Of a DNA stretch of 31,546 bases, positions 25,601 through 29,564 are shown one piece after another. The DNA comes from a virus. The position numbers and the translations under genes were made by a program. The stretch is taken from IMG/VR virus record IMGVR_UViG_3300008117_000415, positions 1 to 31,546 of that record; one strand, written 5' to 3'. The notes under the pieces were generated by a model, which made no database searches, was not told the DNA's origin, and saw nothing but the letters and a program-made list of their open reading frames with translations. The stretch's first letter is position 1, and the number at the start of each line of letters is the position of its first letter.

Positions 25601-26878
25601 CTAACCCAGAAAATCATTGACAACTTCACTCGCCTTTGATTTCTGGTGACGAACGCGGTGGAGATAGCGTTCGGTAGTTTTGATGGATTGATGACCCAAT
25701 CGCTCTTTTACTTCATGGACATCAACGCCGTTCTTTAACAACTGCGTTGCGTTCGCATGCCGTAAGTCGTGAGTTCTTGGACTCCAACCCATTCCTGATT
25801 TGGCTATTGCTTTGTTCCAGATGGTTCTCCATGTATCTCGTGGCAAGTGGCTCGGTTCTTTAAGTATGACCTCACCCTTTTGGTATGACTTTGCTCTTTG
25901 CGACCTTCGATACTCTCGAACTATCGCTTTACACTCATCACACCTACAAGACCCACTTGCGTAAGCCCTGAGCGTGCCATGTTGGAACAGTTTTCCGTCT
26001 TTCACGAATGGTCGTGAAGACTTTGCTATGCCACGAGAATCCTTTAGTTTATCTTTTGGTATGACTTTGCTTTTCTCAAACACTAGGTCTTCTTTCCCTA
26101 TGCGATTTAGCCTGACATACGCCTGAATCTCTTGTATTAGGGCTTCCGGTAACACGACTACACGCTTGTAGCCCGACTTAGTGCCATCTACGACTAGGAA
26201 TCTGTTGCCATTGTTACGCTTCTTGCCTAGTTCGCTTACTCGCCTTTGTATAAAAACTTCTTTTGTATTGAAATTAAAATCTTTTAATCGAATCTCACTC
26301 GCTTCACCGAATCTCGCTCCTGAAGCAACTAGGAACTTCGCAAGTAACTTTGCGCCCTCTGAAGGAAGGTGAATAACTATCTTCTTGAAATCGTCAGGCT
26401 CTAGGATTCCTGTGATGTCCGATTTGCCTGTTTTGACCTTTATGCCATGAGTCGGGTTGATTTGGGTGATTTGACCCTCTATGAGCCATTTATACAGAGA
26501 GCCTAGACACGCCTTGATTTGAGCCAGCGTTGCCCCACCGACCCCCTGAGCCTTCAATTCGCCCAAGATTTCCCTTATCTCTAGCGTTGATACCTCTAAT
26601 ACGCCTTTAGAGCCGATTTGAGGGGCTAGATACCGCTTCCATAGGGATTCATACCCCTTCTTTGTGATAGGCAGTAATTCGGCGGTTCTAAGCCATTTTT
26701 CGGCATACTCAGAAAGGCTCAAATTAGCCCTTGAAAGCCCCTTAGAGCCCCCATTCTCCATGCGTAGGGCTTGATACTGCGCTTCCTTGAAAGAGCCCCA
26801 AGTGCCAGCAGAAAGGCGTTTAGAGCCCTTGCGGTAATAGCCTGTATAGCGTGCGCCACGCCTGACCACATACGCCAT
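25601..26878 (-). CDS. int: Tyrosine integrase
   Basis: This 425-aa recombinase inserts and excises the phage genome. The core-binding domain (about 60-140) precedes the catalytic domain: Arg189 in SGARFGEASEI, HDLRH with His370 and Arg373, RLGHQSIKTTERYLH with the nucleophile Tyr405. Between the first Arg and HDLRH it has an insert, QHGTLRAYASGSCRCDECK (about residues 299-317), with C-x-C-x2-C at 311-316. This resembles a small motif seen in actinobacterial proteins. The start is ATG 26878 with AGGGGGC upstream. Two copies of a 19-bp repeat lie in the gene, read in different frames. Confidence 0.93.
   Translation of the reverse strand: MAYVVRRGARYTGYYRKGSKRLSAGTWGSFKEAQYQALRMENGGSKGLSRANLSLSEYAEKWLRTAELLPITKKGYESLWKRYLAPQIGSKGVLEVSTLEIREILGELKAQGVGGATLAQIKACLGSLYKWLIEGQITQINPTHGIKVKTGKSDITGILEPDDFKKIVIHLPSEGAKLLAKFLVASGARFGEASEIRLKDFNFNTKEVFIQRRVSELGKKRNNGNRFLVVDGTKSGYKRVVVLPEALIQEIQAYVRLNRIGKEDLVFEKSKVIPKDKLKDSRGIAKSSRPFVKDGKLFQHGTLRAYASGSCRCDECKAIVREYRRSQRAKSYQKGEVILKEPSHLPRDTWRTIWNKAIAKSGMGWSPRTHDLRHANATQLLKNGVDVHEVKERLGHQSIKTTERYLHRVRHQKSKASEVVNDFLG
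25877..25895. repeat. 19-bp repeat in integrase gene, copy 1
   Basis: CTTTTGGTATGACTTTGCT occurs here and identically at 26053-26071. A shorter copy sharing TGGTATGACTTTGCTTT with the second site lies at 24967-24983. Here the integrase frame reads it (minus strand) as AKSYQK within the zinc-insert region. Confidence 0.8.
26053..26071. repeat. 19-bp repeat in integrase gene, copy 2
   Basis: Identical to 25877-25895. Here the integrase frame reads it as SKVIPK, shifted by one base relative to copy 1. A protein-level repeat would keep the frame, so identity at DNA level in two frames suggests a DNA site or a recent duplication. Confidence 0.8.
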
Positions 26879-26880
26879 GA

Positions 26881-26974
26881 AAGCCCCCTCTACTGACGAG
26901 TAACCTACTGACGGGTAAGTTACCCACGAGTAACATCTAGGTCAAATTGGAAGCCCCCTCTACTGACGAGTAAC
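26881..26974. repeat. 15-bp iterons and 24-bp duplication upstream of int
   Basis: Three tandem 15-mers, CTACTGACGAGTAAC (26890-26904), CTACTGACGGGTAAG (26905-26919) and TTACCCACGAGTAAC (26920-26934), are followed by a fourth exact copy at 26960-26974. The first and fourth copies lie in a perfect 24-bp direct repeat (26881-26904, 26951-26974). A GGGTAA/TTACCC inverted repeat is at 26913-26925. This is a typical binding array for an integrase arm domain, excisionase or repressor. The int ribosome binding site is inside the first copy. Confidence 0.75.
26917..26945 (-). promoter_or_regulatory. Candidate int promoter
   Basis: On the - strand TTGACC (26945-26940) and TAACTT (26922-26917) are separated by 17 bases. 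TTGACC is one mismatch from the -35 consensus and TAACTT fits the actinobacterial -10 pattern TAnnnT. Iterons overlap the -10 and the expected start, so a protein bound there would control int. No experimental support is available. Confidence 0.4.
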
Positions 26975-26986
26975 TTAGCGGGCATG

Positions 26987-27068: not shown

Positions 27069-27289
27069 TTAGTTATTGAATCAGATTCATCTACTAATTC
27101 AATTTCAGTTTGTTTTCGATTCTGATTCCATTCTTCGATTGTCTTTCGATTCCATACAGGAGTTCTTCCTATGTATGTATCGGGTTCGGGAAGGGTGTTT
27201 CTTTTTCGATAAGTGTAAAGAGTTGAATACTTCAACCCTAACAACTCGCTTACTTGGTCGTTTGTTAGCCATTCTGATTGCCCACTCAC
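27062..27289 (-). CDS. xis: Excisionase-like helix-turn-helix protein
   Basis: This 75-aa protein has an N-terminal MerR/AlpA-type helix-turn-helix: WLTNDQVSELLGLKYSTLYT, then YRKRNTLPEPDTYIGRTP and VWNRKTIEEW. This is the standard pattern of phage excisionases and other helix-turn-helix-17 proteins. The tail is acidic. The start is GTG 27289, overlapping the previous stop (GTGA), with AAGGAA upstream. Its position next to the integrase and iterons supports a directionality factor, bending attachment DNA for excision, but a regulator of int is equally possible. Confidence 0.8.
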   Translation of the reverse strand: MSGQSEWLTNDQVSELLGLKYSTLYTYRKRNTLPEPDTYIGRTPVWNRKTIEEWNQNRKQTEIELVDESDSITNT

Positions 27290-27729
27290 TTTGTTTCCTT
27301 TTCATAGAGTTGTTCTGTTGTGTTGTCGAACCACAAATAAGGTAAATCATTTGTGATGTTGAAGTGATAGTAAGTTGAATCTTTGCGATTGAGATTGCTC
27401 TGATGTGAATTGTGAAAGTTTGTATTGCCAAACCATTTCGGTAATTCACAATCAGGATAAGTTGAATGAAGCGCAACAAATCTTTCACGCATTGAATCTT
27501 TGTAACCACGAGCAATCCATTCATCACAGATTGCGATTCCGTATTCACAAAGTAACTTCTCATGACCGCGCCACAAGTTAGTGGCAGGGTGATTACGCCA
27601 ACCCTTAGTTTCGCCACGCAAGGCGCGTAGTATCTGCCACGCCTCTACTCGTTGCTTACCAAGTCGCTTGTAATCAAGAGCCTGAGCCGACTTAACAAAG
27701 TCGGGATAAGGCAGGAATGTATTAACCAT
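27286..27729 (-). CDS. Pyrimidine dimer DNA glycosylase-like (MSMEG_6728-type) protein
   Basis: This 147-aa protein matches a family common in actinobacteria, annotated as pyrimidine dimer DNA glycosylase or MSMEG_6728 family: MVNTFLPYPDFVKSAQALD, RLGKQRVEAWQILRAL, then GWRNHPATNLWRGHE and CDEWIARGYKD. Family members are thought to repair UV-damaged DNA, but activity has been shown mainly for the distant T4 DenV. The start ATG overlaps the stop of the 58-aa gene by 8 nt. UV repair would benefit a phage of surface waters. Confidence 0.65.
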   Translation of the reverse strand: MVNTFLPYPDFVKSAQALDYKRLGKQRVEAWQILRALRGETKGWRNHPATNLWRGHEKLLCEYGIAICDEWIARGYKDSMRERFVALHSTYPDCELPKWFGNTNFHNSHQSNLNRKDSTYYHFNITNDLPYLWFDNTTEQLYEKETK

Positions 27730-27898
27730 TATTTATTTCCTCTACTTCGTAGAAGTGCGAACCTTCGGTGTTGTCTTCATGCCAATTTTCAAGCGGAGTC
27801 ATTTCCGCAATCTCTTCGGCATGAGTTTCAGAATCGGCTTCTATCTTTAGTGAATAGAAGGTTGTTGTATCGGTTGTTACCCAATAGGTAGGTGTCAT
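27722..27898 (-). CDS. Small acidic hypothetical protein (58 aa)
   Basis: This 58-aa protein is not recognised. It begins MTPTYWVTTDTTTFYSLKIE and continues as an acidic sequence (EADSETHAEEIAEMTP), ending in EVEEINNG. The frame is supported by AAAGGAGTAAGGAC before the ATG, a 4-nt ATGA overlap with the WhiB gene upstream, and an 8-nt overlap with the glycosylase-like gene downstream. The strand-helix-strand pattern hints at a small alpha/beta domain. Confidence 0.6.
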   Translation of the reverse strand: MTPTYWVTTDTTTFYSLKIEADSETHAEEIAEMTPLENWHEDNTEGSHFYEVEEINNG

Positions 27899-28224
27899 TT
27901 GTCCTTACTCCTTTCTGCTTTGCGAATTAAACTTTGTCGCTCAATTTCAGTAGTGCCACCCCAAATCCCATAACGAACACGATTCGTTACTGCGAAAGAA
28001 AGACACTTAGTTGATTCGTGGCATTGAGCGCATAATGATTTTGCCAACTTAATCTTTTTAGTATCTTCGGGAAGATTCTCTCCACTAGGAAACCAAATCT
28101 CAGGGTCATTCTTTTGGCATGGAGTTTTATCCATGTCACGCGGTGTTGGCACTTTGAGATTGAATACAGGATTCTTAGTCGCTCTCTTGGGTTGTGCTGA
28201 GGGCAATCGTTTAATGTAAGTCAT
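27895..28224 (-). CDS. whiB: WhiB-family Fe-S regulator (canonical spacing)
   Basis: This 109-aa protein has Cys36, Cys65, Cys68 and Cys74 with the regular C-x2-C-x5-C core (CAQCHESTKC), a PSGEN segment before it and GIWGGTTEIERQ after it. It therefore has all features of a WhiB protein that binds 4Fe-4S and interacts with the sigma factor. It is a different gene from the one at 10430, which has expanded spacing. It overlaps the Api92-like gene upstream by 4 nt (ATGA). As it is read with the int/xis side, it may regulate lysogeny. Confidence 0.88.
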   Translation of the reverse strand: MTYIKRLPSAQPKRATKNPVFNLKVPTPRDMDKTPCQKNDPEIWFPSGENLPEDTKKIKLAKSLCAQCHESTKCLSFAVTNRVRYGIWGGTTEIERQSLIRKAERSKDK

Positions 28225-28832
28225 TCTTTTTCCTCTCCATGTTTTCCTTCATTACAATCATTACAAAGTGTTTGTTGGGTGCGGTTAGAGCAATTACAAA
28301 CTTCACAATCGCACTCGCCACAATCTTCACAATCAGGAATACAATCGCCCCAATTTTCCCAACGATAGACACAATCTATTTCGCCTTCAATGTCAGAAAC
28401 TCTTATGCCTTTCTCATACTCTGTTTTGCCGTAGAAGCCACTCTCTTCTTCCCAATCCAAAGTTATGTAAGTGAATGGAAACATCTCGGCAATCTTTGTA
28501 ATGACAGGCATAGGCGGTGACCATGCGGTGCTGAATCGAATGTGAATCTGTTGTGGCGTATCAAGATTTAATTCAACATCTTTTGCGTTCCACTTAGTTC
28601 CCCAATTACGACTTCTCCAATCATACCAATCAGAAAATCCATACTTTGCTTTCATTTCATCAGGATTAACATTGTTGGGTGATTTTGTATTTTGGAGTTC
28701 TTCGGGCATTTCAATAATTCGATTGAAGTCGAATAATTGTTCTGAATTGTTTGTAATACCTTGAATAACTTTTTCTAATTGTTTGTTATCTTCGGAAGTA
28801 ATGTAAAGATTGTTATAGCACCAATTAGGCAT
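28221..28832 (-). CDS. Api92/YubB-like ferredoxin-fold protein with Cys-rich tail
   Basis: This 203-aa protein begins MPNWCYNNLYITSED and contains EMPEEL, SRNWGTKWNAKDV and FSTAWSPPMPVI. This is the layout of the Api92/DUF1281 (YubB) family found on plasmids and phages; function is not settled. The C-terminal 50 residues are unusual: CIPDCEDCGECDCEVCNCSN, then CNDCNEG, about ten cysteines in pairs, which could bind several metals. AAAGGAA precedes the ATG. The stop overlaps the WhiB start. Confidence 0.75.
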   Translation of the reverse strand: MPNWCYNNLYITSEDNKQLEKVIQGITNNSEQLFDFNRIIEMPEELQNTKSPNNVNPDEMKAKYGFSDWYDWRSRNWGTKWNAKDVELNLDTPQQIHIRFSTAWSPPMPVITKIAEMFPFTYITLDWEEESGFYGKTEYEKGIRVSDIEGEIDCVYRWENWGDCIPDCEDCGECDCEVCNCSNRTQQTLCNDCNEGKHGEEKE

Positions 28833-28857
28833 TTATTTTCCTTTCTTTGTTTTAGGA

Positions 28858-29004
28858 ATCTAGTGGGGGCAGATACAACTCGCCTAACAAGGTCGAAAGG
28901 AGTTCATGAAGCCCCTCATAGGGTCATGGTTGCTCTTTGGTCTTGAATAGTTTGTAGGGAATGAAGAAACCTACAAAGGTCATTAACTTTGACCCCCACT
29001 AGAT
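28858..29004 (-). ncRNA. Candidate structured RNA next to the HNH gene
   Basis: A perfect 12-bp closing helix, ATCTAGTGGGGG (28858-28869) with CCCCCACTAGAT (28993-29004), encloses three hairpins. These are an 8-bp stem TTTGTAGG/CCTACAAA (28951-28977), CATGA/TCATG extended by CCCT/AGGG (28905-28928), and AACTC/GAGTT (28877-28904), the last two directly adjacent. The whole 180-nt gap contains no gene. The - strand is more likely transcribed because all neighbours are read that way. The element begins 9 nt after the HNH stop codon. I recognise no RNA family. The transcribed strand and the RNA nature are inference. Confidence 0.5.
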
Positions 29005-29012
29005 ACATTTGT

Positions 29013-29564
29013 TTATTTAGTTAATTGTTTGTGTGCGTGGTATCTCCAACTCTTGGCACGCTTCACAGTAATAATGTCGTGACAGTTATGACAACGCACT
29101 ACACACTTTTGTATTTCCTTTTTAATCTTGTGTAATGGTTGAATGTCACGAATCATGTCAGCGATTGTGTATTCCTTATCGCCCCTAGTGTGTAGGTGGT
29201 CAAAGGTCAGACTACGAATGTCGGAATCAGTAATCTTAACTATTTGGTTAATTGTGGAATTAGGAACTTTGCCTTTAAGTAACTTCTTAATGCGAAGTTT
29301 CTTTTTGGCGCAATCAACGCAAGTATGTTTAGCAAAGTAAGTCGCTAAGAAAGCATGAATCTCTTTCTTACGCCTTCTTCTATTCCGATACATTCTTTGT
29401 AATTGAGCGTTTGTATTCTTTCGATAGTAAGCCCTCTGTCGCTCGCTTTGGCATGGTCGGCAATAGGGTTGTGTATTACCGACAACGCCACGAGTTGAAC
29501 GCTTCTTATTGAATGAAGTCAATGGTTTTTTAGTTTTACAATGACTACAAACTTTTGTTTTCAT
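29013..29564 (-). CDS. HNH endonuclease (homing-type)
   Basis: This 183-aa protein starts with a zinc finger (CSHCKTKKPLTSF with Cys6, Cys9, then YCRPC with Cys35, Cys38), followed by a basic helical stretch. The HNH domain holds TCVDCAKKK, LTFDHLHTRGDK and RCHNCHD, a His-Asn-His metal site with paired structural cysteines. Such free-standing phage HNH genes often spread by cutting genomes that lack them. AGGAG precedes the ATG. It lies 9 nt upstream of the structured region. It is too small for an IscB-type RNA-guided nuclease and has no RuvC motif. Confidence 0.85.
   Translation of the reverse strand: MKTKVCSHCKTKKPLTSFNKKRSTRGVVGNTQPYCRPCQSERQRAYYRKNTNAQLQRMYRNRRRRKKEIHAFLATYFAKHTCVDCAKKKLRIKKLLKGKVPNSTINQIVKITDSDIRSLTFDHLHTRGDKEYTIADMIRDIQPLHKIKKEIQKCVVRCHNCHDIITVKRAKSWRYHAHKQLTK

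Follow-up and report, generated by a model that had tools for sequence, protein, structure and literature searches.

The locus described here raises the question of what occupies the gap between an HNH endonuclease gene and the gene that follows it, and to which of the two it belongs. The window, i.e. the whole stretch of DNA analysed, is the viral IMG/VR record IMGVR_UViG_3300008117_000415 (31.5 kb; 31,546 nt), and a temperate actinobacterial phage is suggested by its gene content, which includes an integrase, an excisionase-like gene, WhiB and a lysozyme-like gene. A gene for a 183-aa HNH endonuclease (29013..29564; PHROG 2255 "HNH endonuclease", E 6.5e-22) lies upstream of one for a 203-aa DUF1281_C/Api92-like protein (28221..28832; Pfam PF18406, E 6.4e-16), both on the minus strand, and the gap between the HNH stop codon and the latter gene holds a structured RNA on the same strand, as are the parts of this RNA and the ribosome-binding site located below. 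A preliminary description of this gap reported a perfect 12-bp closing helix around a 123-nt closed loop with three hairpins, directly behind the HNH gene, too elaborate for a simple terminator and matching no RNA family; a regulatory RNA, an element mobilised together with the HNH gene and a miniature inverted-repeat element were offered as possible roles. The inverted repeat is exactly as described, with arms at 28858-28869 and 28993-29004 separated by 123 nt, and it reaches 13 pairs if the next U.G is counted. It does follow the HNH stop codon, from which 8 bases (29005-29012) separate it, but it lies equally in front of the DUF1281/Api92-like gene. The repeat alone is not remarkable and proves nothing, because inverted repeats of 12 bp whose arms are no more than 200 nt apart occur in 37 of 100 random windows, and the window itself has three. 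Folding z-scores were -3.9 for the plus and -3.6 for the minus strand, better than nearly all shuffles on both. What lifts the repeat above chance is covariation among ten homologues.

DNA-pattern and protein-guided searches found the full element in at least 11 further IMG/VR viral contigs, a minimum in that the searches were pattern-based and may miss diverged homologues; a lack of homologues was among the outcomes that the preliminary description had named as evidence against its claim. One further copy, identical to the window, is truncated. After removal of duplicates, ten distinct sequences including that of the window were retained (alignment A1, model R1). Every complete copy sits between the HNH and the DUF1281 gene. 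The length of the element ranges from 148 to 153 nt and there are stops in the frames of most copies, thus the RNA is not coding. Further homologues were found neither in INPHARED phages, which gave only 26-nt chance matches, nor in genome contigs searched by HNH protein and by pattern, nor at distant DUF1281 and HNH loci, nor in a neighbour-protein scan, nor with a looser pattern in the viral-contig stretches among the matches listed. In 396 actinobacterial genomes no credible copy was present, the single weak match (89 nt, E 0.05) being judged a chance one after reading. A literature search did not find a description of the element. We regard the element as a genuine new family of structured RNAs, narrow in its distribution, in phages of actinobacteria.

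RNAalifold applied to the ten sequences gave five helices, P1 (13 bp), P2, P3, P4 and P5, and the element (28855..29006) was delimited from these homologues, pair counts and strand. The claim of a branched structured RNA was borne out, in a different shape: instead of three hairpins inside the closing helix there are two arms, P2-P3 and P4-kink-turn-P5, which join P1 in a three-way junction. Standard pairs fill 97.8% of the pair cells of the ten sequences, and two-sided changes occur in 13 of 41 pairs (33 two-sided cells). The covariation score is 0.300, compared with 0.146+/-0.014 for shuffled alignments and at most 0.083 when the structure is slid; none of 500 shuffles reached 0.300. The changes are compensatory, which is the opposite of the uncompensated breaks that the preliminary description had named as evidence against a structured RNA. 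P1 (AUCUAGUGGGGGU, 28992..29004, with GCCCCCACUAGAU, 28858..28870) is 100% paired, and five of its 13 pairs show two-sided changes; a single pair passes through U-A, A-U, G-C and G-U. In P2 (28980..28988 with 28939..28946) such changes affect three of seven pairs. P3 (UUUGUAGG, 28970..28977, with CCUACAAA, 28951..28958) has 7-8 bp, with changed pairs, in every homologue (10/10 once the helix ends were set by hand). P4, the C helix of the kink-turn, is 100% paired, with pair-keeping one-sided changes at two positions; its 5' strand is AGAGCAAC (28929..28936) and its 3' strand, invariant in sequence, is GUUGUAUCU with one bulged A (28871..28879). P5 (28914..28922 with 28883..28892) is 97.5% paired and has two-sided changes in four of eight pairs. 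In the minus-strand consensus 34 cells are G.U and only 4 are A.C, and P2 and P3 disappear from the consensus of the plus strand, therefore the functional strand is the minus one. A plus-strand or DNA cruciform reading was rejected on the same grounds, since 34 A.C mismatches would arise. The RNA thus has the orientation of the two genes, and the ten aligned sequences show that the element, about 150 nt long, is a real and evolutionarily conserved folded RNA.

No known family accounts for it. As already supposed in the preliminary description, Rfam 15 covariance models gave no match in the window at gathering score, none on the element at E<=5 with lax filters and none in four homologous loci at E<=2. 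An intrinsic terminator, likewise doubted there, was rejected: the 3' strand of P1 is followed by UCC UAAAACAAAG and not by a U-run. One terminator-scan match inside the element (28973-28999, minus strand) is at chance frequency and away from the end of P1.

The internal loop between P4 and P5 has the form 5' CAU(A)-GA-C / Y-GA, with GA/GA invariant in all ten sequences. One strand (28923..28928) consists of the bulge CAU, which is CAA in one homologue, followed by G1b, A2b and C3b in all ten, and the other (28880..28882) of Y3n, G2n and A1n. A three-nucleotide bulge is thus followed by G.A, A.G and a non-Watson-Crick C.C or C.U, and the -1b,-1n pair is C-G, or U-G in two sequences. A standard kink-turn is defined by a 3-nt bulge and then G.A and A.G, flanked by a C helix on one side and an NC helix on the other (PMC4316175; PMC5061560), and at the level of sequence the loop fits this published definition. 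From C at position 3b, the kink-turn is predicted to fold in Mg2+ without protein.

The terminal loop of P5, L5 (GGCUUCAUGAACUCCUUUCGA, 28893..28913), has the layout GGCUU-variable-AACUCCUUUCGA, in which GGCUU is mostly and ACUCCUUUC fully conserved. Its invariant CUCCUUUC (28895..28902) matches the 16S rRNA 3' tail in Actinomycetota letter for letter and could mimic an anti-Shine-Dalgarno sequence. We found GGATCACCTCCTTTCT in 32 of 60 Actinomycetota genomes; this we take to be the 3' end of 16S rRNA, so that L5 repeats CUCCUUUC of that tail. The Shine-Dalgarno (SD) sequence of the DUF1281 gene, GAAAGGA (28839..28845), begins about 12 nt past the end of P1 and can pair with L5. In nine phages the duplex contains an uninterrupted run of 6 or more Watson-Crick pairs, 10 at most, and in the remaining one it has 7 bp, G.U included; with G.U allowed, at least 7 bp form in 10/10. 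L5 pairs more strongly with this SD than with the start regions of eight genes nearby (p 2e-5, a value drawn from related sequences), and the same SD is also a strong one for 16S rRNA (p 1e-4). When loops were swapped among phages they paired equally well (own SD -12.15, SDs of other phages -12.13 kcal/mol), i.e. L5 has no preference for its own SD and the two do not covary. Pairing between L5 and the SD is compatible with these sequences, not demonstrated by them.

A second fold competes for the same arm. In it AACUC in L5 (28900..28904) pairs with GAGUU (28877..28881), a segment that the competing hairpin shares with P4/kink-turn; pairs form in 49 of 50 cells. By nearest-neighbour energies, in a model that ignores the kink-turn, this fold beats P1+P4+P5 by 2.6-9 kcal/mol in nine of ten sequences, and in several it also pairs CUUUC. 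AACUC:GAGUU never covaries, whereas 12 two-sided cells fall in P5, and P4 stays paired through all its changes. We rejected an H-type pseudoknot of P5 with AACUC:GAGUU, which overlaps P4, P4 being favoured by a G.U to A-U change in three sequences, and so AACUC:GAGUU is kept only as a competing fold. Kissing of L5 and L3 was also discarded, complementarity being absent by eye. Since the alternative is calculated to be the more stable one for nine of the ten phages, a switch between two states is a plausible hypothesis.

A regulatory role is probable for this RNA, and of the options in the preliminary description the regulatory RNA is still the best reading. We propose that it works like a translational cis-regulator. 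It may be a riboswitch, which would combine a conserved aptamer upstream of a gene with an expression platform; what is seen here is a conserved element just before an SD, with competing folds and an SD-complementary loop. More specifically, the RNA would act in cis in the intercistronic leader of the DUF1281/Api92-like gene, its kink-turn arm presenting or hiding the anti-SD loop, a mechanism that we consider about evenly poised between right and wrong. With the P4/kink-turn/P5 arm folded, L5 would pair with GAAAGGA(G) and translation of DUF1281 would be blocked; with the arm refolded into the hairpin closed by AACUC:GAGUU, L5 would be hidden, the SD free and DUF1281 translated. The direction of control could also be the reverse. 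The trigger might be a small molecule, an ion, a protein (the DUF1281 product or one of L7Ae type) or the arrival of ribosomes at the HNH stop codon 8 nt upstream. Inheritance of the element points to the same gene, as pairwise RNA distances follow those of DUF1281 (Mantel r 0.64-0.68, p<=0.001). They also follow other backbone genes, the integrase with r 0.49 and an upstream gene with r 0.70 (six contigs), so co-inheritance does not single out DUF1281.

If the RNA instead served as a protein-binding or processing site, the kink-turn or the junction would bind a protein (DUF1281 as autoregulator, an L7Ae-like host protein or an RNase) that sets the stability or translation of the mRNA between the two genes without SD pairing. 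Kink-turns are classic protein sites (PMC5061560), the sequence of P4 is nearly invariant, and co-inheritance with DUF1281 fits an autoregulator. Yet the C at 3b predicts folding without protein, and the invariance of CUCCUUUC is left unexplained; we consider such a site unlikely.

Bacterial RNAs with CU-rich loops suggest a further explanation. RoxS and LhrC are small RNAs of Gram-positive bacteria that carry an unpaired CU-rich stretch complementary to SDs, and the phage RNA has such a stretch too. Cut from the mRNA or transcribed free, it could act in trans, its CU-rich L5 pairing with the ribosome-binding sites of further mRNAs from phage or host. Many SDs would be partners for CUCCUUUC, 6-8 nt of L5 match several genes of the window, and the complementarity of L5 is not specific to the neighbouring SD. 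Unlike RoxS and LhrC, the phage RNA is intercistronic; neither a promoter-like site for a separate transcript was seen at the element nor, in a scan, a terminator at its end, and its intergenic position is constant while its distances track DUF1281. We regard a trans-acting small RNA as rather improbable.

The element could also be imagined as part of a mobile HNH unit, either as a homing element or as a HEARO/OMEGA-like guide RNA of the endonuclease, and HNH indeed adjoins the RNA in every contig with a complete copy. RNA distances, however, are uncorrelated with those of HNH (Mantel r 0.14, p 0.13), and a relative, G006/L015, has a 67%-identical HNH gene adjoining an integrase, while the RNA is absent from its whole record and DUF1281 from the stretch read. 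These correlations and this relative suggest that HNH is an independently moving gene, in the manner of mobile or recombining endonuclease genes, and that the RNA looks like part of the backbone with DUF1281; since HNH is present in all contigs with complete RNA, it is from distances and one counter-example that the RNA is linked to DUF1281. An RNA of IscB-IsrB systems was rejected because the 183-aa protein has no RuvC-type match in Pfam or PHROGs and the RNA, for which there is no Rfam match, is not congruent with HNH. Mobilisation together with HNH, as first envisaged, is thus largely refuted and we give it very little credence. The miniature inverted-repeat element did not hold either: each of the 11 matching records and the window has a single copy, and none in the 396 actinobacterial genomes is credible. 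Distances of the HNH gene (29013-29564) agree with those of no neighbour (r 0.18 or less), other genes mostly agreeing with each other. A self-cleaving ribozyme or another catalytic RNA, which the compact junction with conserved unpaired residues might suggest, is the most improbable explanation of all, as Rfam ribozyme families do not match even at lax filters and the position calls for no cleavage.

The proposed cis-regulator can be compared with several known systems. Riboswitches of the preQ1 and SAM-II type sequester the SD, and the phage RNA would likewise act by pairing with a ribosome-binding site, but its predicted partner is an anti-SD loop about 50 nt upstream. The TPP riboswitch has a three-way architecture of P1, P2-P3 and P4-P5, which the phage RNA shares; in the latter, the kink-turn is inside the P4-P5 arm and not at the junction, and Rfam gives no match. 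Some TPP riboswitches use a k-junction, an elaborated kink-turn (PMC4005666). SAM-I, cobalamin, cyclic-di-GMP and T-box RNAs also have a standard kink-turn in a junction arm before a gene (PMC4316175), and the phage kink-turn is similarly predicted to fold in Mg2+, although it is set in a three-way junction with a different core that matches none of the Rfam families. Phages are known to carry orphan cis-regulatory motifs, manA and wcaG in cyanophages (PMC2864571); these too are structured RNAs with no known ligand in front of genes of aquatic phages, but the phage RNA matches no Rfam family and is hence not one of them. A broader reading, possible but less likely than not, is that of a new RNA class: a three-way junction with a kink-turn would display in one of its loops a decoy of the 16S 3' tail and, as a switch under the control of a ligand or protein, capture ribosome-binding sites of a phage gene, perhaps of others as well, during infection.

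In this element actinobacterial phages have a structured RNA that is well supported and belongs to no family. It is compact, contains a recognisable architectural module and would have a testable output, the ribosome-binding site of the next gene. It suggests that actinophages may control translation with a copy of the 16S tail. It also offers a regulatory context for the uncharacterised but widespread Api92/DUF1281 phage proteins, for which no function was found in a literature search. The AlphaFold2 model of the window's protein (pLDDT 83) has a single PDB match below E 0.001, Api92 itself (2ijr, E 2.5e-6). Compared with most of its neighbours this protein (28221-28832) diverges fast, with 52-80% identity; its terminal tail, rich in Cys and similar to a zinc ribbon, is conserved in 10/10.

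Downstream of DUF1281 on the same strand are genes for a pyrimidine dimer glycosylase (PF03013) and a WhiB regulator (27286-27729 and 27895-28224). Three to four copies of the direct repeat CTACTGACGAGTAACYTA at 26878-26977, just upstream of the integrase start, are possibly integrase/excisionase arm sites or attP; the same motif, read on the other strand as TACTCGTCAGTAACTTA, also precedes the integrase of L015. The integrase of the window (25601-26878) has a Cys-rich stretch, HGTLRAYASGSCRCDECKAIVREYRRSQR, at residues about 297-334 with matches to two HNH-endonuclease families of PHROG, 4234 and 23251, and a similar stretch is found in the L015 integrase. Between HNH and integrase (1550-1680), L015 has a hairpin, GGGGGCAGGTTGCCAAGCGCAACTTGCCCCC, that resembles a terminator and runs into a stretch of T; in the window this place is taken by the RNA, by DUF1281 and by other genes.
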